A stretch of 49,542 nt of DNA, taken from the NCBI GenBank assembly GCA_001464315.1, contig LNFK01000073.1, positions 1 through 49,542 on the forward strand, given 5' to 3'. This stretch comes from Sphingomonadales bacterium Ga0077559. Its GTDB lineage: Bacteria; Pseudomonadota; Alphaproteobacteria; Sphingomonadales; Sphingomonadaceae. Of this stretch, positions 10,587 to 41,030 are shown piece after piece; the stretch's first letter is position 1; each line of letters begins with the position of its first letter. The notes under the pieces were generated by a model. It worked only from the letters and a program-made list of their open reading frames with translations, made no database searches and was not told the origin of the DNA. A program made the position numbers and the translations under genes.

Positions 10587-11651
10587 CTAAACCTCCAAAC
10601 GCCCATGCTGCAGCTTCGGCAGCACATAGCGTGCAAACATATCGCATTCGTTGATGTGCGGATAACCAGATAGAATGAACGCCTCAATTCCCACCGCACG
10701 ATAGGCGTTGATTTTCGCCAGAACCTGATCTGGGTCGCCGACAATCGCCGCGCCGCAGCCTGACCGCGCACGCCCGATTCCGGTCCAAAGATTGTCCTCC
10801 AGATACCCGTCATTCGCCGCCGCCTGCTCGCGAAGTTCGGCCTGATGCGCCACGCCGAAGGTTTGTGTGTCGAGGCTTTTGTTGCGGATGGCTTCACCCT
10901 GCGCGGCATCAAGTTTCGACAGCAGCCGGTCAGCATAAGCCCGCGCCTCGGCCTCGGTTTCGCGGACGATGACATGCGCGCGGAAGCCGTATTTGAGGGT
11001 TCGTCCGAATTTAGCAGCGCGTGCCGTCATATCTTCGACAAGGTCCTTCGCGCCTTGCACCGTTTCGGGCCACATCAGGTAGACATCGCAACCCTCGGCA
11101 GCGGCCTCCTTGGCGGCTGGCGACAGCCCGCCGAAATAGAGCGGCGGGCATTTGCCGCTGACCGTCTTCATGCGCGGCGGGTCGAGATCGATTTTATAAT
11201 GTTCGCCGTTAATCGACAGATGCTCGCCGTTCAGCAGGGTCTTCAAAATCTGCATCGCCTCGACCGTTCGGCGATAGCGTGGTTCACTGTCCATCTTGTC
11301 ACCGGGCAGGTCTGACGAGATGATATTCACATTCAATCGCCCGCCCGAAATCTGGTCAAGCGTCGCGATCTGCCGCGCGAGTTGTGGCGGCCAGCTCTCG
11401 CCAACGCGGACCGCCATGAGCAATTTGATACGGCTGGTCAGCGCAGCAATCGCGCTGGCAAAGGCAGTGGTGTCGAGACCTAGCGCGTAGCCCGAGGGCA
11501 GCAGTATATTATCGAACCCGCCCTTTTCTGCGGCCAGCACGATATTGCGGCAGTGCTCCCAGCTTGAGGCAAGCATCGGGTCTGGAACGCCCAGAAATTC
11601 ATAATCATCGTCGCATAAGGCGGAAAACCAGCTGACTTCGACGGGTTTCAT
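10587..11651 (-). CDS. smoC: FMNH2-dependent sulfonate monooxygenase (SsuD/SmoC type)
   Basis: Luciferase-like monooxygenase of 354 residues, close to SsuD. Residues known to form the SsuD sulfonate/flavin site are present in order: W194, R224 and H226 (in FRAHVIVRE), R296 (RARSG) and the SGYPH motif with Y330 and H332. The Cys54 position of SsuD is Ala or Gly here. SsuD-type enzymes cleave C-S bonds with O2 and FMNH2, giving an aldehyde and sulfite. In the sulfo-SMO pathway SmoC does this to sulfoquinovose, yielding 6-dehydroglucose. Its ATG overlaps the stop of the aldo/keto reductase gene (ATGA), and it is the last gene of an operon that opens with a sulfoquinovosidase, which makes sulfoquinovose the likely substrate. 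No flavin reductase partner is in the operon. The alternative is a general alkanesulfonate monooxygenase. Confidence 0.82.
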   Translation of the reverse strand: MKPVEVSWFSALCDDDYEFLGVPDPMLASSWEHCRNIVLAAEKGGFDNILLPSGYALGLDTTAFASAIAALTSRIKLLMAVRVGESWPPQLARQIATLDQISGGRLNVNIISSDLPGDKMDSEPRYRRTVEAMQILKTLLNGEHLSINGEHYKIDLDPPRMKTVSGKCPPLYFGGLSPAAKEAAAEGCDVYLMWPETVQGAKDLVEDMTARAAKFGRTLKYGFRAHVIVRETEAEARAYADRLLSKLDAAQGEAIRNKSLDTQTFGVAHQAELREQAAANDGYLEDNLWTGIGRARSGCGAAIVGDPDQVLAKINAYRAVGIEAFILSGYPHINECDMFARYVLPKLQHGRLEV

Positions 11652-12518
11652 GGCAGGGGAACTCCTCGGGCAGCGACCAATACGCTATACCAGTCTGCGC
11701 GGGTCCATTGAATTTTGAAAGCATCGGCGGCTTCCGCGATGCGCGCCGGGTTTTGCGAGCCGACGATCGGGATTGGTCGCGCTGGATGGGCCATGATCCA
11801 GCTATAGGCGGCGGCAGTGCGCGATACGCCGTGGGCTGCTGCGACGCCCGAGAGCGCGGCGGCGACATTCTGCTCACGTTCGTTGGTCGGGGGCAAGCAC
11901 CGCCAAGTCCATCGCAATCGCCTGATCGAGCTCGCCATTTTCAATCGTGTCAATCCGAAGTGGCGAAAGTTCGGGCTGCGTCGATACAATCGGCACGCTA
12001 CTGAATTGCGCGAGTGTTGCGGTCTGTGCCTGCGTGAAGTTCGAAACCCCGAACGCGCGGATTTTACCGGCTTTGTGCGCGTCCTCGACCGTCCGCGCGA
12101 TTTCCTGCGGATGAGTCAAAATATCGGGTCGGTGAATTTGCCACAGGTCGATGCGGTCGGTCTGTAATCGGCCAAGGCTATCATCAATCGCCTTGGTCAG
12201 ATATTCCGCGCTGCTGTTGTACGGCGTCGGCGGAATAATCCCGCCCTTCGTCGCCAGCACCATCCGGTCGCGCAGTTCGGGCGCATCGGCAAATACTCGG
12301 CCGAGCAGCTCTTCCGCATTGCCAAAACCCTGTTCGCCAAAGCCGTAGATATCGGCGGTATCGAACAGGGTGATGCCTGCCTCGAATGCGGCATCAATCG
12401 CGGCGCGCGCGGCGGACATTTCAAGCCCGGCGAAGCGCCACATACCCCATGCAAGCGAAGAAATTTCGATGCCGCTTGTGCCCAGTTTGCGGGTCAGCGG
12501 CGGTTTGGGAAGTGTCAT
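11648..12518 (-). pseudogene. smoB: Aldo/keto reductase (SmoB-like), frameshifted
   Basis: Two frames together make one aldo/keto reductase related to YdhF and SmoB. The first (12518 to 11874) has the catalytic tetrad D53, Y58, K91 and H129 (FDTADIYG, ATKGG, QIHRPD). The second continues from about 11905 (PPTNEREQNV) to the end at 11648, with the NADPH-binding PIPIVGSQNPARI segment. The frames part near 11890-11900. The conserved A-W-S-P-L-G-G-G-R-L loop expected there is missing, so this looks like a small deletion of about 25 bases with frame change, not a simple one-base slip. In the sulfo-SMO pathway this enzyme reduces 6-dehydroglucose to glucose. The start overlaps the lacI-family stop (ATGA) and the stop overlaps the monooxygenase start. 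It is either inactivated or a sequence/assembly error. Confidence 0.8.
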
Positions 12519-13543
12519 GCTTTTTTGCTCTTTTGTAAGGGTGAATAAGGCGGAGCCACGGACTCGCGGCTGATGAGTTCGTGCGGCAGACGGCGATGCT
12601 CGATGCCGCCTTCGCCGAATAACAGGTCCGCGGCGGTCGATGCTAGGTCCCGGACAGGCTGGCGGATTGTGGTCAGCGGCGGCCAGACGACGCGGGCGAG
12701 CGTGGTGTCGTCGAAACCCGCGACCGAAAGCTGCTCGGGCACCTGCAAGCCGCGACGGTGCGCAACTGCGAGCACCCCCGACGCCATATCATCGTTCGAC
12801 GCAAATATGGCGGTCGGCGGAACTTTCAGCGCAAGAAATTTTTCGGTCGCCGCAACACCGCTCTCGAAATCGAACTGGCCGTCGGCGATCAAGTTAGGAT
12901 CGACTGAAATGCCAACGCGGCCCAGCGCGCGTTCGTACCCTGCTTGTCGCTCTGCACTGGCCATATGGTTGGGATGGCCTTTGATGAACGCAATCCGCCG
13001 ATGGCCGATATTGATAAGATGCGTCGTCATATCGTCGGCAGCCTGAGTATCGTCCATGAATACCGAAGACGTCAACGCATGGTTGGTCCCCGGCGAAATG
13101 CGGACGAATGGAATATTCATGGTCTCGAGGGCAGCCAATACTGGCGCGCAATCGGTGACCGGCGAGGACAATATCGCGCCATCGACATGCGTCTGCCGCA
13201 CCATACCGCGCACCTGCTCGCCGACATTGGGATCGGCGACATCAACCGGTTGGGCAATCAGGCGCATGCCCTCTTCATGGCAGCGATCCCAGCAGCCCTG
13301 CATGATTTGGTGCATATAATATGGGCTGTGATTGTCGTAGATGAGCGCCACTTGCCCTGATTTGGTGCCCGCCAATATTCGCGCCGCGATGCTGGGCGAA
13401 AAGCGCAGTTCGGCCATCGCAGCATCGACCTTCGCCTTGGTCGCGGCGCTGACGTAAGGATGGTTGTTGAGCACGCGGCTGACGGTTTTGACAGCGACGC
13501 CAGCAAGTTTGGCGACATCGCGGATGTTCGAGCGGTCTGGCAT
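12515..13543 (-). CDS. LacI-family regulator of the sulfoquinovose operon
   Basis: LacI/GalR-type repressor of 342 residues. An N-terminal helix-turn-helix (IRDVAKLAGVAVKTVSRVLNN, about residues 7-27) and hinge helix (SIAARILAG) are followed by a periplasmic-binding-protein-like effector domain (VALIYDNHSPYY, GHRRIAFIKG, AIFASNDDMASGVL, SVAGFDDT). The ATG at 13543 overlaps the sulfoquinovosidase stop (TGATG); a TTG one codon earlier is the other possible start. It lies inside the operon it probably controls, between the glycosidase and the reductase genes, all with 1-4 base overlaps. The likely effector is a sulfoquinovose-type sugar, and the likely operator is the dyad at 15618-15639 in the divergent promoter region. 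Effector and operator are both inferred. Confidence 0.88.
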   Translation of the reverse strand: MPDRSNIRDVAKLAGVAVKTVSRVLNNHPYVSAATKAKVDAAMAELRFSPSIAARILAGTKSGQVALIYDNHSPYYMHQIMQGCWDRCHEEGMRLIAQPVDVADPNVGEQVRGMVRQTHVDGAILSSPVTDCAPVLAALETMNIPFVRISPGTNHALTSSVFMDDTQAADDMTTHLINIGHRRIAFIKGHPNHMASAERQAGYERALGRVGISVDPNLIADGQFDFESGVAATEKFLALKVPPTAIFASNDDMASGVLAVAHRRGLQVPEQLSVAGFDDTTLARVVWPPLTTIRQPVRDLASTAADLLFGEGGIEHRRLPHELISRESVAPPYSPLQKSKKA

Positions 13544-15585
13544 CAAATACTGTCTCTTACGCTGACCAGGCCAGCAAACAGGCCGGCAAAATCACTGCCG
13601 TCGCGCCAGAACACCGGCGGCGAACCAATCGGCGCGTCGATCTTGTAGTGGCCAGATTCAAATTGCTCGCCTGTCCAACTATGGGTCCACTTACCATCGG
13701 GCAGATAGACTTCGCGGGCGACCGCGCCTTCTTCGATGACCGGAGCGACCATTAGGTCAGCCCCATACAGATACTGATCCTGAATAGTAAAAGTTTCGCG
13801 GTCGTCGGGATAATGCAGGAACAACGCTCGCTGCGTAGGCAAGCCCGTTGCGACCGCCTCATCACACAAATGTCGGACCCAAGGCGCAAGCGCGGCATGC
13901 ACGCGGCTCCACCTCACGAACCCGGCGAGCAGTTCGGTCGTCGAATCGATCTGCAGATTATCATCGGGCCTATTGCCCTCATGCGTGCGCATCACCGGCG
14001 TGAAAGCGCCAAGCTCGTACCAGCGGTGCATCAGTTCTTCGGTACGGATATTGCCATGCAGGCTGGTATAGCCGCCGACATCGCTATGGCTATAGGCGTT
14101 GCCAACGAGCCCTGCGGACAACGCGGCGGTGATGACAGTTCCGATGCCGTCGTGGCGCGAGAAATCGACCGATTGGTCGCCTGCCCATAGCAAAGGGCAA
14201 TATTGCTGCACGCCGGTAAACCCTGCCCGCATGAAGAACAAAGCATCCCCCGTCCGCCCGCGCGAGGCCACCGCGTCGGCATTGACCTTGGACCAATGCA
14301 CCGGCCAGCGGTTATGCTCCTCCATCGGGTCGCCATTGTGCAACCGCAAATCGACCGGAAGATATTCGCCGAAATCGGCCATCCATCCGTCGAGGCCGAA
14401 GTCGAGCATCTGCTTGCCGATAATTTCCTCGGAAAACCAAGCGGCAGCATTAGGGTTGGTGAAGTCCACAACACCTGCGTCAAACTCGCCGAAATCGACA
14501 GCATAAGGCTCGTCGCCATCGAGCTTCTGCGCCAGATAACCGAGCCGCGCCGCTTCGGCATATTGTGGGCCGTCGACCGCGACATAGGGATTCACATACC
14601 CAAGAAAACGGATCCCGCGTTCTTTCAATTCCGTAATCCGCGCCGGCAGATCGGGATAACGCTCCGCATTCCATTGCCAGTCCCAAAACAGCCTTCGTCC
14701 AAAACTGGTCTGGCGAATGCCCACCCAATCTTCGCACCATAGGCCCGAAACCGCAGCCCCGGCTGCGATGATCTTTTCAAGCCGCGCGAAACTGTTCGCG
14801 CCATCCTTCAAGCCAATGATTGCCCCGCCAATCGCCCAATCGGGCAAAGGCGGCTGTTTGCCCATCTTCGAGGATATTTGGCCGACCACAGCAGGGATGT
14901 TATCTGCTTTGGTCAGCTTGAAATGGACGTCCCCTTGCCATGCACTTACCCGGTGCCGCGAGGGATTGGAAAAATCGAGTACACAATAATGCGCGGTTTC
15001 GACATCAACGGCATAACCGCGTGACGAAAGGAATGTCGGCTGCGGATAATTGGTTGTCCAATAATCGCCGCCCGCGCCGGAGCCGTCAGCATTTACCTTG
15101 TCGGTCAGTGCCGAGCCCGGTTCACGTCCAACCCCCGGTTCGCTGGTCCAAATCGGAAAAGCGCGTCGGTTCAGCGCGAGATAGCTCATCTGTTCTCCGC
15201 CGCCCCAAATCACTTCGTCAGCTTCCGCGATAAAGTCGACGGTCAACCGATCATACTCGTCACCTTCCGGGCATCGGTCTGCGCTTAGCCAGCACGCCTG
15301 CTCGTTTACGAGAAGTTTCAGCAGCGGAAGACCGGACGGCTCGTCGGACAAAAATAGCTCACCATAACCATTTTCAGGTTCGACCCATTTGACAATGTGG
15401 CGCAACAGCCGCTCATCGCTCGGCACATCCTCATGCTTGAAATTGCCGCGCACCATGTTCACCGTCGGATTGCCCTTAGCAATCCGGAACGCAGGTGCAT
15501 CGACACGGTGACGCAGGATGACCCGGTCGCCAAGCAGCAGGTCGAACCCGTCATCCTTTGCTTCGAACCTTGCGGTCACGGCCAT
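13543..15585 (-). CDS. smoI: Sulfoquinovosidase (GH31, YihQ/SmoI type)
   Basis: GH31 glycosidase of 680 residues that aligns by eye along nearly its full length with E. coli YihQ. Residues known to define sulfoquinovosidases are all present: the sulfonate-binding Arg and Trp in the FGRRLFWDW segment (R298, W301; YihQ R301, W304), Tyr506 in HSDVGGYT (YihQ Y508), the nucleophile D404 in GWMADFGEYLP (YihQ D405) and the acid/base D470 in LWAGDQSVDF (YihQ D472). Ordinary alpha-glucosidases lack this sulfonate pocket. There is no signal peptide, so it acts in the cytoplasm on glycosides such as sulfoquinovosyl glycerol, releasing sulfoquinovose. It is the first gene of a four-gene overlapping operon and diverges from a TonB-dependent receptor. 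The start at ATG 15585 gives the same N-terminal layout as YihQ. Confidence 0.93.
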   Translation of the reverse strand: MAVTARFEAKDDGFDLLLGDRVILRHRVDAPAFRIAKGNPTVNMVRGNFKHEDVPSDERLLRHIVKWVEPENGYGELFLSDEPSGLPLLKLLVNEQACWLSADRCPEGDEYDRLTVDFIAEADEVIWGGGEQMSYLALNRRAFPIWTSEPGVGREPGSALTDKVNADGSGAGGDYWTTNYPQPTFLSSRGYAVDVETAHYCVLDFSNPSRHRVSAWQGDVHFKLTKADNIPAVVGQISSKMGKQPPLPDWAIGGAIIGLKDGANSFARLEKIIAAGAAVSGLWCEDWVGIRQTSFGRRLFWDWQWNAERYPDLPARITELKERGIRFLGYVNPYVAVDGPQYAEAARLGYLAQKLDGDEPYAVDFGEFDAGVVDFTNPNAAAWFSEEIIGKQMLDFGLDGWMADFGEYLPVDLRLHNGDPMEEHNRWPVHWSKVNADAVASRGRTGDALFFMRAGFTGVQQYCPLLWAGDQSVDFSRHDGIGTVITAALSAGLVGNAYSHSDVGGYTSLHGNIRTEELMHRWYELGAFTPVMRTHEGNRPDDNLQIDSTTELLAGFVRWSRVHAALAPWVRHLCDEAVATGLPTQRALFLHYPDDRETFTIQDQYLYGADLMVAPVIEEGAVAREVYLPDGKWTHSWTGEQFESGHYKIDAPIGSPPVFWRDGSDFAGLFAGLVSVRDSI

Positions 15586-15617
15586 CCTCTTCGACTGTTT
15601 CGTCGTTATTGCTCACG

Positions 15618-15639
15618 ACTATGGCATGATTGCCACAGT
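15618..15639. promoter_or_regulatory. Candidate LacI-family operator
   Basis: An imperfect 22-bp palindrome in the divergent control region, 33 bases upstream of the sulfoquinovosidase start. The core is TGGCA-TGAT-TGCCA, flanked by ACT and AGT, with 16 of 22 positions symmetric. Even-length dyads of this size are normal for LacI-family repressors, and the regulator gene is in the adjoining operon. Binding is inferred, not shown. Confidence 0.45.
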
Positions 15640-15660
15640 CCGCGCCTAATTGTTGTCGCT

Positions 15661-15681
15661 ATATGACACCGCTAGACATAT
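15661..15681. promoter_or_regulatory. Second inverted repeat in the divergent control region
   Basis: Arms ATATGAC and GACATAT (one mismatch to perfect symmetry) are separated by seven bases, centred on 15671. The repeat lies between the first dyad and the TonB-receptor gene, about 110 bases before its start, so it could be a second regulator site or simply AT-rich promoter DNA. It is weaker evidence than 15618-15639. Confidence 0.25.
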
Positions 15682-15790
15682 CAAGTCAGATTGGTTACAT
15701 CAACGACGATTAAGCCGACCCGCAATTGTATCTGGCACTAGAAACCCAGCGAAATTGCCTAAAACGGGCGGCAAATATGGGAGGCACAGG

Positions 15791-18247
15791 ATGCACATTT
15801 CACCAGTTAAAACCCCGAATCTTTTCCGCGCAGCATTGCTCGGCGGCAGCGCGATTGCGCTGGGCTTATCCGCGCCTGCTATGGCGCAGGATGCCGAGGC
15901 AACAGAAGACTCGTTCAGTAATGAGATTATCGTAACCGCGCAAAAGCGGTCGCAAAATATTCAAGACGTTCCTGTGGCCGTGTCGGTTATTTCGGGCGCG
16001 GCGCTTGAACAGCAGGGCGGCGTTAATATCGAGAATGCCCAATATCTCGTCCCCAGTCTGAACTTCCGCAAATCGGGTTCTGCGCTCAATCAGTCGCTTT
16101 ACCTGCGCGGAGTCGGGACCACGACATTCTCCATCGGCGGTGAGCCTTCGGTTGGCACTGTGCTCGACGGCGTCGTGCTTGCCCGTTCGGGTGAAGCGTT
16201 CAGCGACCTCGTCGATATCGAGCGGATCGAAGTCTTGCGCGGACCGCAGGGCACATTGTTCGGCAAAAACGCCAGCGCCGGTGTCATCAATATCGTCAGC
16301 CGCCGCCCGAGCGACACCTTTGGCGCTTCGGTTGAAGGCGGCTTCTTCTTCGGCAATGGACAGGAGTATCGTGTTCGTGGAGGTGTCGATGCGCCGCTGT
16401 CCGAAAAGGTCGGCGCGCGTGTCACCGGTTTTTATTCGAAATGGGACGGCAATATCCGCAACGAAACGCTGGGCCGCCGTGTCAACGGTTACGAGCGTTA
16501 CGGTTTTCGTGGAATTGTTGAGGCGAAGCCAAATGATAATGTCACGCTGACGCTGATTGGTGACTGGCGCAAATCGAACGATGATTGCTGCGCCGAAGTG
16601 ATCGGATCGCCTGCGCGCAATGTCGATAACTCAACCTTTGCAACCTTCACCAGCCGTGCCGCGACCGCATTGCCGCCGCTGCTTGGCGACAAGAGCCGCC
16701 GCATCCGCCAGAATTTGCTGACCCAGTCGCTGGAAAAGGCATGGGGTGTATCTTTCCAGGCCGACATCGAATCCGATGACGGCCCGACGGTCACGTCAAT
16801 TACCGCCTACCGGAAATATGACAGCAACGAAGTGCGCGACGGTGATTTTCTGTCAACGCCCTATGTCGGGATTGCGCAGAGCCACGATTTCGGTCCGCAG
16901 ACCGGCGATACCTTTACGCAGGAATTGCGGCTTACGTCGCCAACAGGTCAGTTCCTAGAATATGTCGCCGGGCTTTATTATTACAACGCCTCGCAGGAGC
17001 GCACGTTCACGCGCGCCAATATCGCCTGCTCAGCCTCCACGTTGCCTGTACAAGGCGTTTTGACCCCATGCTCGACAGCACCAGGCGCATCGACGATCAC
17101 TTTCCCGCTTGGCACTTCAAATTTCGGCACCACATTTAAAAATATGGCTGCCTTTGGTCAGGCGACCTTCAACTTTAGCGACAATTTCCGCGCGATTGCC
17201 GGACTGCGCTATACGCATGACCAGCTAAATGGATTCCAAATCCGTACAACGCCGGTCCCGGGTGCATCGAACCCCGTTTTCGACCAAGGCGTATATAATG
17301 AATATATTCGCCAACTTAGCTTGGGTGCGACGCCTGCTGCAGCGCAGACTGCTGCGGTCCTGCTATCGAACGGTCAGCCGTTCCGGCAGAAGGTAACAAA
17401 CAATAACCTCTCCGGAAAAGTGGGTCTGCAGTATGACGTCTCCGAGGACGTTATGGCATATGCAAGCTATTCGCGTGGGTATAAGGGGCCGGGTCTTAAC
17501 ATCTTCTTCAATTTGAACTCTAACGGTACGCCACCGCTCGCCGATGAAACCGGTGATAGCTATGAAGGCGGGTTGAAGACCACGATGCTTGACGGCGCGT
17601 TGACGCTGAATTTTGCAGGTTTTTATGCCAAGTACAAAAACTTCCAAGCGAACAATCCCGATTTCGTGCTTGGCCAGCGGATAACCCGTTTCACCAATGC
17701 GGGCACCGTATCGACACGCGGTTTCGAGGCTGATCTGTTGTATCGTCCATCGGACGATTTCACGCTATCGGGCGGCGTTGCCTATACCGATGCCAAGGTA
17801 GATGCGTTTCGCTTGCCGCCTGGTGCACCGATCACCGACCAGATCCCGAGTGGCACGGTTTTACCATTCTCGCCGAAATGGAAAACCTCGCTTGGTGCCA
17901 ACTACACCATTCGCACCGGCGGCTTTGCCGACATCGAATTGGGCGCACAAGGGTCGTACCAGACGAAACAGTTGTCGTTGTTAGTGGCTAGCCCGCTCAT
18001 CCGGCAAAACGGGACTATCAAGTCTTACGGCCTGCTTGACCTATCGATTGCGCTGGTCGGGGCGGATGACAAGTTTCGCATCTCGTTCCTCGCGAAGAAC
18101 GTTTTGGATACAAGCTTTGCTGCATCGATTGTTGACGGCGGGCCGTTGTCTGCAGGCAATGCGGGCAGCTCGAGCTATCGCTACATCATTCCGCGTGAAG
18201 CAGATCGCTATTTCGGCATCAACGCAAAGATCAATTTCGGCGGCTAA
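15791..18247 (+). CDS. TonB-dependent outer-membrane receptor
   Basis: TonB-dependent receptor of 818 residues from the ATG at 15791. That start is preceded by GGGAGG and gives a normal signal peptide (FRAALLGGSAIALGLSAPAMAQ). The open frame runs further upstream but without support. After the signal comes the sphingomonad-type plug entry (EIIVTAQKRSQNIQDVPVAVSV), then the plug (VLRGPQGTLFGKNASAGVINI) and a 22-strand barrel with alternating aromatic strands, ending in INAKINFGG. It should pull a scarce ligand across the outer membrane using TonB energy. Because it diverges from the sulfoquinovosidase operon across a shared 205 bp control region, the ligand is probably a sulfoquinovose glycoside or sulfolipid fragment; that is inference. 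A clear terminator follows. Confidence 0.92.
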   Translation: MHISPVKTPNLFRAALLGGSAIALGLSAPAMAQDAEATEDSFSNEIIVTAQKRSQNIQDVPVAVSVISGAALEQQGGVNIENAQYLVPSLNFRKSGSALNQSLYLRGVGTTTFSIGGEPSVGTVLDGVVLARSGEAFSDLVDIERIEVLRGPQGTLFGKNASAGVINIVSRRPSDTFGASVEGGFFFGNGQEYRVRGGVDAPLSEKVGARVTGFYSKWDGNIRNETLGRRVNGYERYGFRGIVEAKPNDNVTLTLIGDWRKSNDDCCAEVIGSPARNVDNSTFATFTSRAATALPPLLGDKSRRIRQNLLTQSLEKAWGVSFQADIESDDGPTVTSITAYRKYDSNEVRDGDFLSTPYVGIAQSHDFGPQTGDTFTQELRLTSPTGQFLEYVAGLYYYNASQERTFTRANIACSASTLPVQGVLTPCSTAPGASTITFPLGTSNFGTTFKNMAAFGQATFNFSDNFRAIAGLRYTHDQLNGFQIRTTPVPGASNPVFDQGVYNEYIRQLSLGATPAAAQTAAVLLSNGQPFRQKVTNNNLSGKVGLQYDVSEDVMAYASYSRGYKGPGLNIFFNLNSNGTPPLADETGDSYEGGLKTTMLDGALTLNFAGFYAKYKNFQANNPDFVLGQRITRFTNAGTVSTRGFEADLLYRPSDDFTLSGGVAYTDAKVDAFRLPPGAPITDQIPSGTVLPFSPKWKTSLGANYTIRTGGFADIELGAQGSYQTKQLSLLVASPLIRQNGTIKSYGLLDLSIALVGADDKFRISFLAKNVLDTSFAASIVDGGPLSAGNAGSSSYRYIIPREADRYFGINAKINFGG

Positions 18248-18583: not shown

Positions 18584-18955
18584 ATGGCACTTGAACGCAT
18601 CAGCGACGCAGAGCTGACCATCATGGAGATATTGTGGGAGCAGGCACCCCTGACCGCAACGGATGTCGCCGAGCGGATTCCTGCTGACCGCGACTGGTCG
18701 CTACCGACGGTAAAGACCTTGCTTTCGCGCTTGCTCGCCAAGGCTGCAGTCGAACACAAAGCCGATGGCCGCCGCTTCCTGTATACGCCGCTGGTCGAGC
18801 GCGAGGATTATGTATCTCATGAATCCAAACGGCTGGTCGACCGGCTGTTCGGGGGCAAATTCATGCCGCTGGTCGCGCATCTCGCAGAGCAGGAAAAGCT
18901 GAGCGATGCGGACATTGGCGAGATCGAGAAATTGCTGAGGGAGATGAAATCATGA
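18584..18955 (+). CDS. BlaI/MecI/CopY-family transcriptional repressor
   Basis: This 123-residue winged-helix repressor has the normal family size. The helix-turn-helix reads AELTIMEILWEQAPLTATDVAER with the recognition helix in SLPTVKTLLSRLLAK, followed by the wing (DGRRFLYTPLV) and a C-terminal dimerisation helix region. In this family proteolysis triggered by a membrane M56 sensor relieves repression. The gene is preceded by GGAGA and by a BlaI-type dyad. Its stop overlaps the start of the M56 gene (ATGA), which fits a repressor-sensor pair. No beta-lactamase gene is nearby, so the regulated targets are unknown and may be only the pair itself. Confidence 0.92.
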   Translation: MALERISDAELTIMEILWEQAPLTATDVAERIPADRDWSLPTVKTLLSRLLAKAAVEHKADGRRFLYTPLVEREDYVSHESKRLVDRLFGGKFMPLVAHLAEQEKLSDADIGEIEKLLREMKS

Positions 18956-20592
18956 GTAGCGCGATCATGGAGACATGGCTGTTCGACAGCCTGCTGGTCA
19001 CGACATTGCTGATGGCCGCGATATTGATATTACGGCGGCCGGTTGCAAAAATGTTTGGCGCAGGCGTTGCTTATGCTTTGTGGTTGATTCCTGCAGCTCG
19101 TTTGCTGATGCCCAGCCTTGAAGGCGATGCGGCTCCGGCAGGCGAAGGCGGGCTGGCTGTGCAAGACGCGGTGTTTGACGCGTTTATGGCGGGCGTTACC
19201 TCGCCTGGTCCAGTTGTCACAACGGCAAATCAAGTCGCTATTCTTCCCGGCATCGATTATGCGGCACTCGGCATTACCTTCTGGCTCGGCGGCGCTGCCT
19301 TGTTTTTCATCATACAGATGATCCGCTATGCCTCGATGCGTGACGACCTGCTGTCCGAAGCAACCGAAATTGCCAATATCGACGGCGTCAGCATCGTCGC
19401 CTCCGATCAGGTCGCAGGCCCGCTCGCTTTCGGTCTGTTCAAACGCTACATCGCGGTGCCGCAGGACTTTACCAAGGCCTATTCGCCCGCAGAACGCGAG
19501 CTCGCGATTGCACATGAAATGGCGCACCATAAGTCGGGCGACCTGTTCGCCAATCTGGTCGCCTTCATCATTCTGTGCCTGCAGTGGTTCAACCCGGTTG
19601 CATGGATGAGCTGGAACGCTTTCCGCTTCGATCAGGAAGCCGCGTGCGACGCTCGGGTACTGGCAGGTAAAGGCGCCGAGGAACGCGCGATTTACGGGCA
19701 GGCGCTGGCGCGCGCTGCCTTCGACGGTGTGCCGACCTTTGCCACCGCCTTGAATACGCCCAAAACGATAATCGAGAGATTGAGGAGACTCACCATGAAA
19801 GACGCCAGCACGAAACGGCGCTTGTTCGGAAAACTGGGCATATTGACCGCAGCGGCGCTCATCCTGCCTTTGACCGCAACGGTCGTCCCAGCCGTAGTCG
19901 CGCACGATGAAACCGCCACCGATGGCAAAGCCGAAACCGTGAAGCACAATGTCCGGATCATCAAGCTGAACCGTGATGGCAAAACCGTCGATATCGTCGG
20001 CCATGACGGTAACGGCAAAGAGGTTACGAAGGTCGAGCGCGACGGCAAGGTCTTCATTTTCCGCACCGACAAGAAACTGTCGCAAGACCAAGTAGAAAAG
20101 ATGGTGGACGACGCTCAGACCTCTAGCGAAGAGGCCGATGAAGCCATGGTCTTGGCCGATGAAGCACGCATGGAGGCGGAGGCCGCGCGCGGCGAAGCCG
20201 AAATGGTACGCGGCGAGGCCGACGCGGCACGGGCTGAGGCCGCTGCGATGCGCGGCCATGCAGAAGCAATGCGCGTTCACGCTGTCGCTATGGCTGCCAA
20301 TTATATTCCCGAGATCGACATTCGCGAAATCACCAAGAACTGCAAAGATGGCCAGCCAGTGACCACCAATGTCGAAGGTTTCGACGGAACCAACAAATCG
20401 CGCATCCGCCTTGTCATGTGCGGCAAGGGGCAGGCGCGGATTGCCCGGGTCGAAGCGATCAAGGGCCTGCGCGAGGCACGCCGTGACATCGCTTCGGAAA
20501 CAGAAATGCCCAAAGCTGTCCGTAAAGATGTGATCGAAAAGCTCGAAAAAGAGATCCGCAAGCTCGAAGCGCAAACGGACGGATCGAATTAA
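18952..20592 (+). CDS. M56-family membrane peptidase with coiled-coil C-terminus
   Basis: Membrane protein of 546 residues of the BlaR1/MecR1 M56 family. Transmembrane segments lie near 12-28, 38-53, 104-124 and 200-215. The zinc site is HEMAHH (188-193) with the likely third ligand in DQEAACDARVL (E229). Another hydrophobic segment near 294-315 leads to an exported or periplasmic part. That part is not a penicillin-binding sensor domain. It has a KLNRDGKTVDIVGHDGNGKEV beta stretch, then about 60 residues of Ala/Glu/Met heptad-like repeats (about 384-446), then a small domain with two cysteines (NCKDG, VMCGKG) and a charged C-terminal helix. It probably senses an envelope signal and cleaves the BlaI partner; the signal is unknown. 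It is coupled to blaI by a 4-base overlap and ends at a strong terminator. Confidence 0.85.
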   Translation: MSSAIMETWLFDSLLVTTLLMAAILILRRPVAKMFGAGVAYALWLIPAARLLMPSLEGDAAPAGEGGLAVQDAVFDAFMAGVTSPGPVVTTANQVAILPGIDYAALGITFWLGGAALFFIIQMIRYASMRDDLLSEATEIANIDGVSIVASDQVAGPLAFGLFKRYIAVPQDFTKAYSPAERELAIAHEMAHHKSGDLFANLVAFIILCLQWFNPVAWMSWNAFRFDQEAACDARVLAGKGAEERAIYGQALARAAFDGVPTFATALNTPKTIIERLRRLTMKDASTKRRLFGKLGILTAAALILPLTATVVPAVVAHDETATDGKAETVKHNVRIIKLNRDGKTVDIVGHDGNGKEVTKVERDGKVFIFRTDKKLSQDQVEKMVDDAQTSSEEADEAMVLADEARMEAEAARGEAEMVRGEADAARAEAAAMRGHAEAMRVHAVAMAANYIPEIDIREITKNCKDGQPVTTNVEGFDGTNKSRIRLVMCGKGQARIARVEAIKGLREARRDIASETEMPKAVRKDVIEKLEKEIRKLEAQTDGSN

Positions 20593-38930: not shown

Positions 38931-39083
38931 ATCCAACCAAGTTTTGCGACCTTCCGGGAAGGATTGTAAACATAACGCAGCAGAGGCGATGGTGTTCCGT
39001 TGGCCCCCTGTGCATGAAATGCCAAATAGTTGATTTACCCTTTCGCCTCGTTGAGGCATGTTCTCCCGATAATAGGGAGAGGG

Positions 39084-41030
39084 ATGATGCGGCATTTTAT
39101 GTTGGCGCTTTTGATAGGCACGGCACCTACGACTGTTTTGGCGCAGGCGGGCGCAAAACCCGCTTCGCAGATGACAGTGGCGGCGCAGCGTCAGGTTGCC
39201 GAAGGACTACCCGCCGAAGACGGGCGCGACGCAGAATTTGCCGGTCGCGGATATCTGGGGACGTTAGCTGATCCTGTCATCAAGTCCAGCGATGGAAAGC
39301 CTGTCTGGAACTTGAATGCCTATGCATGGATGGAGGGGAGGGCCCCTGAAACGGTAAACCCGAGCCTTTGGCGGCACATGGGCATCTTGCGCAAGCACGG
39401 GCTTTACGCACTGTCCGAAAATATGTGGCAGGTGCGCGGTTTCGATGTGTCCAATATGACTGTTATCAAGGGAAAGACCGGCTGGATATTAATCGATCCG
39501 TTGACCACCCGCGACACGGCAGCCGCTGCCATGCGGTTGGTCAACGAAAAGCTGGGCGTACGGCCGGTGAAGGCGGTTATTTACAGCCATAGCCATGCCG
39601 ATCATTTTGGCGGCGTGCGCGGGCTGGTCGATGAGGCTGATGTCAAAGCGGGCAAAGTCGCGATTATCGCGCCCGAGCACTTTCTTGCGGAAACCGCATC
39701 CGAAAATGTCATGGCGGGCTCGGCTATGGGCAGGCGCGCCAATTATCAGTTTGGTAGCAATCTTTTGCCAGGCGCGGAAGGGCAGATGGGTAGCGGCATC
39801 GGCAAAGGCATAGCTGGTGGCGACATAACCTTGATCCCGCCGACCATCGACATTCGCAAAACGGGCGAGATTCGCGAAGTCGACGGCGTCGCACTTGAAT
39901 TCCAGATGGTACCCCAAACCGAGGCGCCTGCGGAAATGAACGTTTACGTGCCAGCATCGAAGACGTTTATTGCCGCAGAAATTGCGACTTGCTCGCTGCA
40001 CAATATCCTGACTCCGCGCGGCGCAAAGGTGCGCGATACGCACGCGTGGGCGGGGTTCCTGAACGAGGCATTGAACCTCTATGGGGACCGCAGCGATACG
40101 ATTGCATCAAGCCATTGCTGGCCGCGTTTTGGGCAGCCCGAGGTTAAGGGCTGGCTATCGGGACAGCGCGATAATTATCGTTATCTGCATGACCAGACGG
40201 TGCGGATGATGAACAAGGGGATGACCCAAGCCGAAATTGCCGAAAATCTGAAAGCGCCGCCAGCCATCGCCAATCAATGGTTCAACAAGGGTTATTACGG
40301 GACGTACAGCCATAATTCGAAAGCAATTTATCAATATTATCTCGGATGGTACGATGCCGTTCCGGCCAATTTGAATCCGCACCCACCCGAGATCCGTGCA
40401 ACAAAGCTGGTCGCAGCAATGGGCGGCGCGAGCAAAGTGCTGGCTGAGGCGAAAAGGGCAATGGCGGCAGGCGACTACCGCTGGTCTTCGGACATTTTGA
40501 ACAGCTTGGTGTTTGCCGATCCCAAAAACGCCGAAGGCCGATCCTTGCTCGCCGATAGCTACGAGCAGCAGGGCTATCAGGCCGAATCTGCAATTTGGCG
40601 TAACATGTATCTTTCTGCCGCACGCGATTTGCGCGAAGGCGTGAAGGCAAGCATCACTACGCAAAGCGTTGATATGATTTCGGCGATACCGACCGGGTTG
40701 CTACTCGATTCCGTCGCCACGCGGCTCGATCCGGCTGCGATTGGGGACAGCAAGCTAACAATCAACTTCGCCTTCACCGACCGTCAGGAGAAAGCCAAGG
40801 TCAGCGTCGGTAACGCGGTGATGTTCAGCGAAATGGGTGCCAGCCATGCCGCGCCCGCCGCGACGGTCAGCGGCCCACGTCAGCTGTTTCTCGCACTGCT
40901 TTTCCTCAAAATGCCGTTGGCGCAACTAGAAGGGGCTGGCCTAAAAGTCGAAGGTGACCGTAAAGCAATTGAATCGTTACAAACCGCGCTCGACCCGATG
41001 CCGGGTCCGTTCAATATTGCGGAGCCGTAA
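39084..41030 (+). CDS. Exported alkylsulfatase (SdsA1/BDS1-like, MBL fold)
   Basis: A 648-residue protein from ATG 39084, with GGGAGAGGG just upstream; the frame extends 18 codons further without a good start. Signal peptide about 1-21 (TTVLAQ). Domain order fits linear alkylsulfatases: an MBL-fold zinc domain with HSHADHFGG (169-177), EIATCSLHNILTPRGA and SSHCWPRFG, a helical dimerisation domain (AAMGGASKVLAEAKRAMAAGDYRW) and a C-terminal SCP2-like domain (LTINFAFTDRQEKAKVSVGN). These enzymes hydrolyse primary alkyl sulfates such as SDS to alcohol and sulfate, providing sulfur or detoxification. It lies alone between folE and the convergent mltG. Confidence 0.88.
   Translation: MMRHFMLALLIGTAPTTVLAQAGAKPASQMTVAAQRQVAEGLPAEDGRDAEFAGRGYLGTLADPVIKSSDGKPVWNLNAYAWMEGRAPETVNPSLWRHMGILRKHGLYALSENMWQVRGFDVSNMTVIKGKTGWILIDPLTTRDTAAAAMRLVNEKLGVRPVKAVIYSHSHADHFGGVRGLVDEADVKAGKVAIIAPEHFLAETASENVMAGSAMGRRANYQFGSNLLPGAEGQMGSGIGKGIAGGDITLIPPTIDIRKTGEIREVDGVALEFQMVPQTEAPAEMNVYVPASKTFIAAEIATCSLHNILTPRGAKVRDTHAWAGFLNEALNLYGDRSDTIASSHCWPRFGQPEVKGWLSGQRDNYRYLHDQTVRMMNKGMTQAEIAENLKAPPAIANQWFNKGYYGTYSHNSKAIYQYYLGWYDAVPANLNPHPPEIRATKLVAAMGGASKVLAEAKRAMAAGDYRWSSDILNSLVFADPKNAEGRSLLADSYEQQGYQAESAIWRNMYLSAARDLREGVKASITTQSVDMISAIPTGLLLDSVATRLDPAAIGDSKLTINFAFTDRQEKAKVSVGNAVMFSEMGASHAAPAATVSGPRQLFLALLFLKMPLAQLEGAGLKVEGDRKAIESLQTALDPMPGPFNIAEP

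Follow-up and report, generated by a model that had tools for sequence, protein, structure and literature searches.

The stretch of DNA analysed here (49,542 nucleotides, hereafter the window) is contig C73 (LNFK01000073.1) of the genome of Sphingomonadales bacterium Ga0077559 (G000), a 2.86-Mb assembly of 78 contigs. Its genes between positions 10587 and 18247 support the presence of a sulfoquinovose (SQ) desulfonation cluster of the sulfoquinovose monooxygenase type (sulfo-SMO, also sulfo-ASMO) that is linked to a TonB-dependent receptor; SQ is a sulfonated sugar of plant lipids. It is quite probable that this locus forms the core of a sphingomonad SQ regulon comprising, besides the receptor, an unlinked permease of the major facilitator superfamily (MFS) and further loci tied in by a LacI-family regulator. 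The pathway of the core has been described before, and one of its genes is broken in the present assembly. What is new is the linkage of the receptor to SQ loci, its persistence through an exchange of the glycosidase (GH31 for GH188) and in a locus of the Entner-Doudoroff type (sulfo-ED), and the occurrence of one operator-like site at three loci of the genome.

Three genes of the cluster are intact on the minus strand and encode a GH31 protein of 680 amino acids with no signal peptide by eye (13543-15585), a LacI-family regulator (12515-13546; Pfam PF00356 and PF13377) and a monooxygenase (10587-11651). Adjoining open reading frames (ORFs) of this operon overlap by 4 nt, and the operon diverges from the receptor gene on the plus strand, as a preliminary description of the sequence had stated. 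The same description had assigned the GH31 protein to the sulfoquinovosidases on five residues, all of which were found: R298, W301 and Y506, which we take to be sulfonate-site residues, and D404 and D470, presumably the catalytic pair. None of the five varies among the GH31 proteins of SQ-type loci that were aligned (88 of 88). The NCBIfam model NF007746 matches the protein at 852 bits (cut-off 553), against only 207 and 139 bits for the alpha-xylosidase and MalA models, and the best solved relatives, 5ohy and 5ohs, both labelled yihQ, score 810 and 808 bits. By score, the enzyme is thus nearer to the YihQ type than to ordinary alpha-glucosidases. The best NCBIfam model does carry the name alpha-glucosidase, as would suit an ordinary member of that group in a cluster handling some other glucoside; this is very improbable given the five residues, the linkage to a SmoC-type gene and the gap among PDB sequences, where six match at 616-810 bits (four labelled yihQ, 8r56 and 6pnr not) and the next at 165.

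The monooxygenase had been described as of SsuD/SmoC type, and comparison with both proteins favours SmoC: its closest solved relatives are 7olf and 7oh2 (372 and 370 bits), which we take to be SmoC chains, as compared with 218 bits for 7jv3 and 205 for SsuD (1m41). The gene would accordingly encode an SQ monooxygenase of SmoC/SquD type dependent on reduced flavin mononucleotide (FMNH2). At an Agrobacterium locus that also holds a GH31 sulfoquinovosidase (L096), the monooxygenase matches 7olf at 793 bits over 349 amino acids and the reductase scores 621-623 bits to 7bby and 7bbz.

The window was compared with 80 GH31 loci, the best 80 of 596 ranked by similarity to the window GH31, so that the set leans towards close relatives. 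The 77 loci outside a rhizobial-type group include the window, two contigs counted twice (L061/L114 and L077/L123) and metagenome-assembled genomes (MAGs) with doubtful labels (L035, L054, L058, L092 and L102). Eleven loci were assigned by the authors to the rhizobial type; one of them, L098, is a MAG contig of uncertain placement in which GH31 is preceded by only 1.8 kb. The gene maps were drawn from tblastn matches because the ORF caller picked some antisense ORFs. In addition, a family sample of 397 genomes was searched for SmoC homologues at E 1e-60 or better; 106 were positive, one of them at 38% identity and probably with another enzyme. The nearest relatives by synteny are labelled Sphingorhabdus (L043, L067, L076), Sphingopyxis (L052) or Sphingomonadales.

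The receptor gene (15788-18247, plus strand) encodes a plug and a beta-barrel (PF07715 and PF00593) in 819 amino acids including a signal peptide. The start previously placed at 15650 is the first TTG of the frame and probably too early; the most likely start is the ATG at 15788, which GGGAGG precedes and which a signal peptide follows, as judged by eye. A receptor is found in the cluster at 75 of the 77 GH31 loci outside the rhizobial-type group, the two misses (L032 and L050) being contig ends, and in none of the 11 rhizobial-type loci, where absence means no tblastn match to the window receptor. At L088, L091, L093, L101 and L110 it stands beside the reductase gene, 2-5 kb from GH31 and not adjoining it. 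All 12 of the 20-kb regions sampled around SmoC matches (12 of the 106 SmoC-positive genomes) contain it. The genome has only 24 TonB-dependent receptor matches in 2.86 Mb, the cluster's own included, and chance adjacency should therefore be rare. In a tree, 79 linked receptors split from 22 paralogues of the window's own genome with support 1.0, which drops to 0.72 when six more unlinked receptors are added. The window receptor shares 39-83% identity with the 78 other linked receptors, 18-32% with the paralogues and 20-33% with the six that are unlinked.

Linkage, phylogeny and a shared operator-like site are in keeping with a putative receptor group specific for SQ, and the substrate proposed for this receptor, while still conditional, is better supported than it was from the window locus alone. 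The alternative is a receptor for other cargo such as a siderophore or a vitamin, which became a neighbour by chance or for general reasons. The 42 solved receptor relatives among the matches listed are by name receptors for siderophores, metals, heme, B12, colicin or pesticin. The N-terminal third is the part that matches best. Such a cargo is nevertheless unlikely in view of the linkage, the grouping of linked receptors, their shared site, and the persistence of the receptor across GH31 and GH188 loci and across sulfo-SMO and sulfo-ED loci.

This persistence is seen where the neighbours have been exchanged. At five loci (L117-L121) a GH188 homologue fills the slot of GH31 between receptor and LacI, and the receptor is kept in 5/5. 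The L119 protein, to which these homologues are 80-100% identical, scores 386 and 372 bits against 8qc2 and 8qc3, the structures of SqgA in the available part of PMC10755693. According to the same part, GH188 is NAD-dependent with a fold unrelated to that of the window's GH31, and SqgA occurs in sulfo-SMO clusters, Sphingomonas sp. Leaf17 being named in a figure legend. Among L032-L123 and L269-L273 the homologue was found only at L117-L121, L272 and L273. Two GH188-type loci belong to the window's own genus (G269 and G370); the window's genome has no GH188 match at E 1e-40. At L272 (Sphingobium yanoikuyae pKN1), a second LLM monooxygenase and a putative sulfate exporter accompany a GH188 homologue, an aldo/keto reductase, SmoC, an MFS gene, a sulfatase and a TonB receptor.

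The single sulfo-ED case with a receptor is L092, a MAG contig labelled Gammaproteobacteria, which combines receptor, GH31, MFS, GlpD and GlpK genes with SDR, SMP-30, ILVD_EDD dehydratase, HpcH aldolase, aldose epimerase and aldehyde dehydrogenase genes, a set that we take to be that of sulfo-ED (13 ORFs or antisense ORFs scanned of 38 listed). The L092 stretch has no SmoC match. As the receptor is kept both across the swap of GH31 and GH188 and at a sulfo-ED locus, it tracks the substrate and not one particular enzyme.

The window locus is itself a mosaic. Where 15 syntenic loci have LacI, SmoC and the flanking prfA, the window's copies share 90-96% identity with theirs, and the window's reductase parts mostly 87-93%, whereas its GH31 shares only 60-63% and its receptor 39-56%. 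In the GH31 tree the window groups with mostly Erythrobacter and Porphyrobacter loci (13 rows, support 1.0) and the syntenic relatives form a separate group (16 rows, support 1.0); forcing the window GH31 together with eight relatives was rejected (p-AU 0.00019; quick tree without mixture, 24 rows). The sister of the window receptor is that of the GH188-type locus L119 (support 1.0; 84% identical). Since GH31 and receptor both group away from the syntenic relatives, each of the two arms at the operator has apparently been replaced, and from a different source, which suggests that receptor and GH31 came in from other lineages.

The operator-like site is a 19-bp imperfect palindrome of LacI type at 15662-15680 (plus strand), between GH31 and receptor and upstream of the receptor start; its function is proposed from its recurrence. 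It lies within 600 bp upstream of GH31 in 69 of the 77 loci and is missing from L032 (37 bp of sequence), L088, L091, L092, L093, L101, L102 and L110; its commonest form in other loci is TATGACACCGCTTGACATA. The search pattern, TGACACCGNNNGACA, has three exact matches in the whole genome: C73:15664, the sole match on the window contig, and C75:23969 and C64:13637, both outside it, at an MFS locus and before a fused flavin reductase gene. Each of the six genus genomes that hold the GH31 cluster, counting G000, has 3-4 sites; five without the cluster have none. The reversed pattern, used as a control, gave zero matches in nine genus genomes and one in two. Across the family sample the pattern matches in 134/397 genomes, and among 169 sites listed, 54 are within 20 kb of a SmoC gene, as compared with about 0.35 expected at the density of the sites listed for the 291 SmoC-negative genomes (77 sites). 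The independent part of the test consists of the site at C64 and of those genus genomes in which no site occurs. Three genomes with no SmoC match (G195, G236 and G272) have three copies each of TGACACCGGTTGACA spread over the genome, perhaps for another regulator with a similar site.

Sixty-six of the 72 GH31 loci with a LacI row carry the operator, and of the other six, L032 lies at the end of a contig, while GACACCGTTGTC takes the place of the operator in the five loci of Sphingomonas type. Neither form was found in the five GH188-type loci, and a shared site sought there gave no convincing common words. LacI may bind the site, with which the LacI group coincides in part. A clean match between LacI recognition helix and operator was withdrawn, as the helix groups overlap and the helix alone does not predict the site; this weaker result and the complete sulfo-ED set at L092 pull the odds in opposite directions.

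The two further sites lead to candidates for parts that the cluster lacks. A TonB receptor acts at the outer membrane, whereas an ABC importer works at the inner one, so that the contrast with Agrobacterium drawn earlier, with a receptor in place of an ABC importer, mixed two membranes and was rejected. The candidate for inner-membrane transport is an MFS gene (C75:22628-23887), 83% identical to the cluster-linked MFS gene of L119. It is divergent from a PF03601 gene that overlaps glpD; a relative of the PF03601 gene in L272 is annotated as a putative sulfate exporter, and MFS, PF03601 and GlpD genes flank the SQ cluster itself in many other loci. The C75 site runs into the opening codons of the PF03601 frame. 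That the site is a mere leftover of this gene start was rejected, because it recurs between GH31 and receptor where PF03601 is elsewhere. In four genus genomes (G192, G299, G137 and G350) the best MFS match, at 38% identity, belongs to another type, seen in the same place as the C75 gene in G192 and G299. At this place beside PF03601 and glpD, L171 and L172 differ in MFS type from L169 and L170 of the same genus. Glycerol kinase is encoded on C53.

No flavin reductase was found beside the window cluster. At C64 (12385-13617; L202:4382-5617), an apparently degenerate alpha/beta-hydrolase is fused to a flavin reductase (PF01613), and the operator-like site stands 20-34 nt before its start. The fusion is present in 7/8 SmoC-positive and 0/3 SmoC-negative genus genomes; the eighth positive genome, G269, has a separate PF01613 gene after SmoC. 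An SsuE-like partner for SmoC was rejected here, no match being found, and in 7/8 genus genomes an SsuE-like protein is absent at E 1e-5. The fused gene is accordingly put forward, from its domain and the site before it, as a candidate flavin reductase. A 58% paralogue lies at C1:18903 without an exact operator match. The idea that the hydrolase half is a sulfolipid esterase is weakened, as the histidine expected near the end is, by eye, replaced in the genus copies.

Under the reading as the core of an SQ regulon, the receptor would bring sulfoquinovosyl glycerol or a closely related compound through the outer membrane, and the MFS permease encoded on the other contig would carry it across the inner membrane. 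The cytoplasmic GH31 enzyme would free SQ and glycerol, and the SmoC-type monooxygenase with FMNH2, perhaps from the co-regulated fused flavin reductase, would convert SQ to sulfite and 6-dehydroglucose. Glycerol would enter metabolism via glpK and glpD, and sulfur would leave via the sulfate-exporter-type PF03601 protein. LacI would bind one operator type at three loci and in this way tie the split parts together.

The reductase of this cluster appears, from the alignment, to be broken in the assembly and is not the intact SmoB-like operon member that had been described. The ORF at 11874-12518 (minus strand; 214 amino acids) encodes the N-terminal part of an aldo/keto reductase of SmoB/SquF type, covering Pfam positions 2-168 of 291, and its frame is broken near the end; positions 216-283 fall in another frame (11648-11989), to which the rest of the gene at 11648-11902 (minus strand) belongs. 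Alignment with 15 relatives, one contig being held twice (L061/L114), shows a single 32-nt gap after nt 627 of the gene, in the window only, and no other lesion; in 15/15 relatives the gene is open as one frame of 305-309 codons. With no intact reductase, the cluster is not filed as a complete sulfo-SMO/ASMO pathway in this assembly. The assembly alone is compatible with a real lesion and with an assembly error alike. A less than even but plausible prospect is that the lesion is an assembly or sequencing error and the cluster complete: the gene has no second lesion, its N part is 87-90% and its C part mostly 89-93% identical to those of 14 syntenic relatives, and the gap ends have hardly any direct repeat (0-2 nt in five relatives), so that slippage is not favoured. 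However, the gap is internal to a 49.5-kb contig and 32 nt is an unusual size for a base-calling error. Almost as plausible is that the pathway is decaying or reduced, with SQ opened only for sulfite as a sulfur source and 6-dehydroglucose wasted or taken by an unrelated reductase. The lone frameshifting gap, confined to the window, and the lack of an intact close reductase copy in the genome would agree with decay, but the remaining cluster genes are open, the operator-like site is kept, the key GH31 residues are present, and the lesion may be a sequence error.

Several points weigh against the proposed regulon. As the reductase gene is broken in the assembly, conversion of 6-dehydroglucose to glucose is doubtful in this strain; no other close aldo/keto reductase copy was found in its genome, the next best being 34% identical. 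SmoC similarity alone is no proof of the pathway, since a SmoC homologue of 69.5% identity on the Rhizobium plasmid pWSM4643_1 (L269, 1-11053) adjoins sulfo-ED-like genes, a LacI gene and an ABC importer; no TonB-dependent receptor is annotated at L269, and no GH31 or aldo/keto reductase beside its SmoC. The operator is near 31/55 MFS genes and 31/39 PF03601 genes, and, among the sites listed, at least 31/106 SmoC-positive genomes have an exact site within 20 kb; nearness to SmoC is, moreover, partly circular and not an independent test, because the pattern was read off SQ loci. The helix VSIKTVSRVLN occurs in three loci with the operator and four without. The operator precedes the fusion only in the window's genus (6/30 fetched loci), where the fusion is without the hydrolase histidine, and outside the genus the fusion is untied to SmoC (11/36 fusion-match genomes against 98/386 overall). 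The support is also wholly computational.

Among known systems, the sulfo-ASMO (sulfo-SMO) pathway of Novosphingobium aromaticivorans was reportedly described by Liu et al. in 2021, and the Agrobacterium sulfo-SMO cluster reportedly by Sharma et al. in 2022. An SQ pathway in a sphingomonad is thus already known: in N. aromaticivorans, to the extent covered by the excerpt of PMC9594981, it is a sulfo-ASMO pathway (SquD and SquF) that resembles the window in host group, SQ monooxygenase, aldo/keto reductase and lack of SsuE in the cluster. The account in that excerpt mentions no receptor, operator or split locus, and the window differs in its broken reductase. The same excerpt gives an ABC importer for Agrobacterium sulfo-SMO. 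Five Agrobacterium-type loci (L096, L097, L104, L109 and L111) have a GH31 sulfoquinovosidase 56-57% and SmoC 51-52% identical to the window's and an aldo/keto reductase 34-36% identical to its N part. A binding-protein ORF family occurs in L096, L097, L104 and L109 (Pfam SBP_bac_1, tested on L097) and the window cluster is without an ABC importer; a TonB-dependent receptor occurs in 0/5 of these loci, whereas the window has one. The E. coli yih cassette likewise combines GH31 YihQ with an MFS importer, but differs, according to the portion of PMC12608037 available, in its sulfo-EMP (Embden-Meyerhof-Parnas) route and in the OmpL porin, the comparable outer-membrane part. Xanthomonas receptors for plant carbohydrates (PMC1790865, in part) are similarly linked to the use of plant sugars; here, unlike there, the proposed substrate is a sulfonated sugar, and it is SQ loci that the receptor group accompanies.

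Among the matches listed, titles and opening lines of abstracts yielded no SQ receptor or LacI operator for sphingomonads, though figures and supplements may show a receptor; TonB and outer membrane are not mentioned in the text portions of the SQ papers searched for both terms, and passage of SQ across the outer membrane in such bacteria is not described in the partly accessible literature surveyed. Annotated records already show the receptor as an SQ-cluster neighbour, on pLA3 of Novosphingobium pentaromativorans US6-1.

Other features of contig C73 include a BlaI/MecI-type repressor gene (PF03965) followed by an M56 peptidase gene (PF05569) at 18584-20592 (plus strand), which stand beside the SQ cluster in several genus relatives, and an alkyl sulfatase (PF14863 and PF14864) at 39030-41030 (plus strand), the second organosulfur enzyme of the contig. 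Unlike the Agrobacterium-type sulfo-SMO cluster, the window cluster has no ABC importer beside it; a lone family 5 solute-binding protein (PF00496; 28333-29784, minus strand) stands 12.7 kb off.

On balance, sphingomonads would seem to pump sulfolipid sugars, most likely sulfoquinovosyl glycerol and possibly lyso-sulfolipid, across the outer membrane by dedicated, LacI-controlled TonB receptors that follow the substrate and not the chemistry and that spread between lineages by replacing one another at the locus. Four predictions reach past the literature found and lend themselves to easy testing: the family of receptors, their common operator, the dispersal of the regulon over several loci and the candidate reductase. 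If they are true, the receptor would mark SQ loci regardless of glycosidase or route and serve as a useful marker gene, and the operator would offer a testable means to trace regulon genes that lie elsewhere in the genome, which may include the missing flavin reductase.

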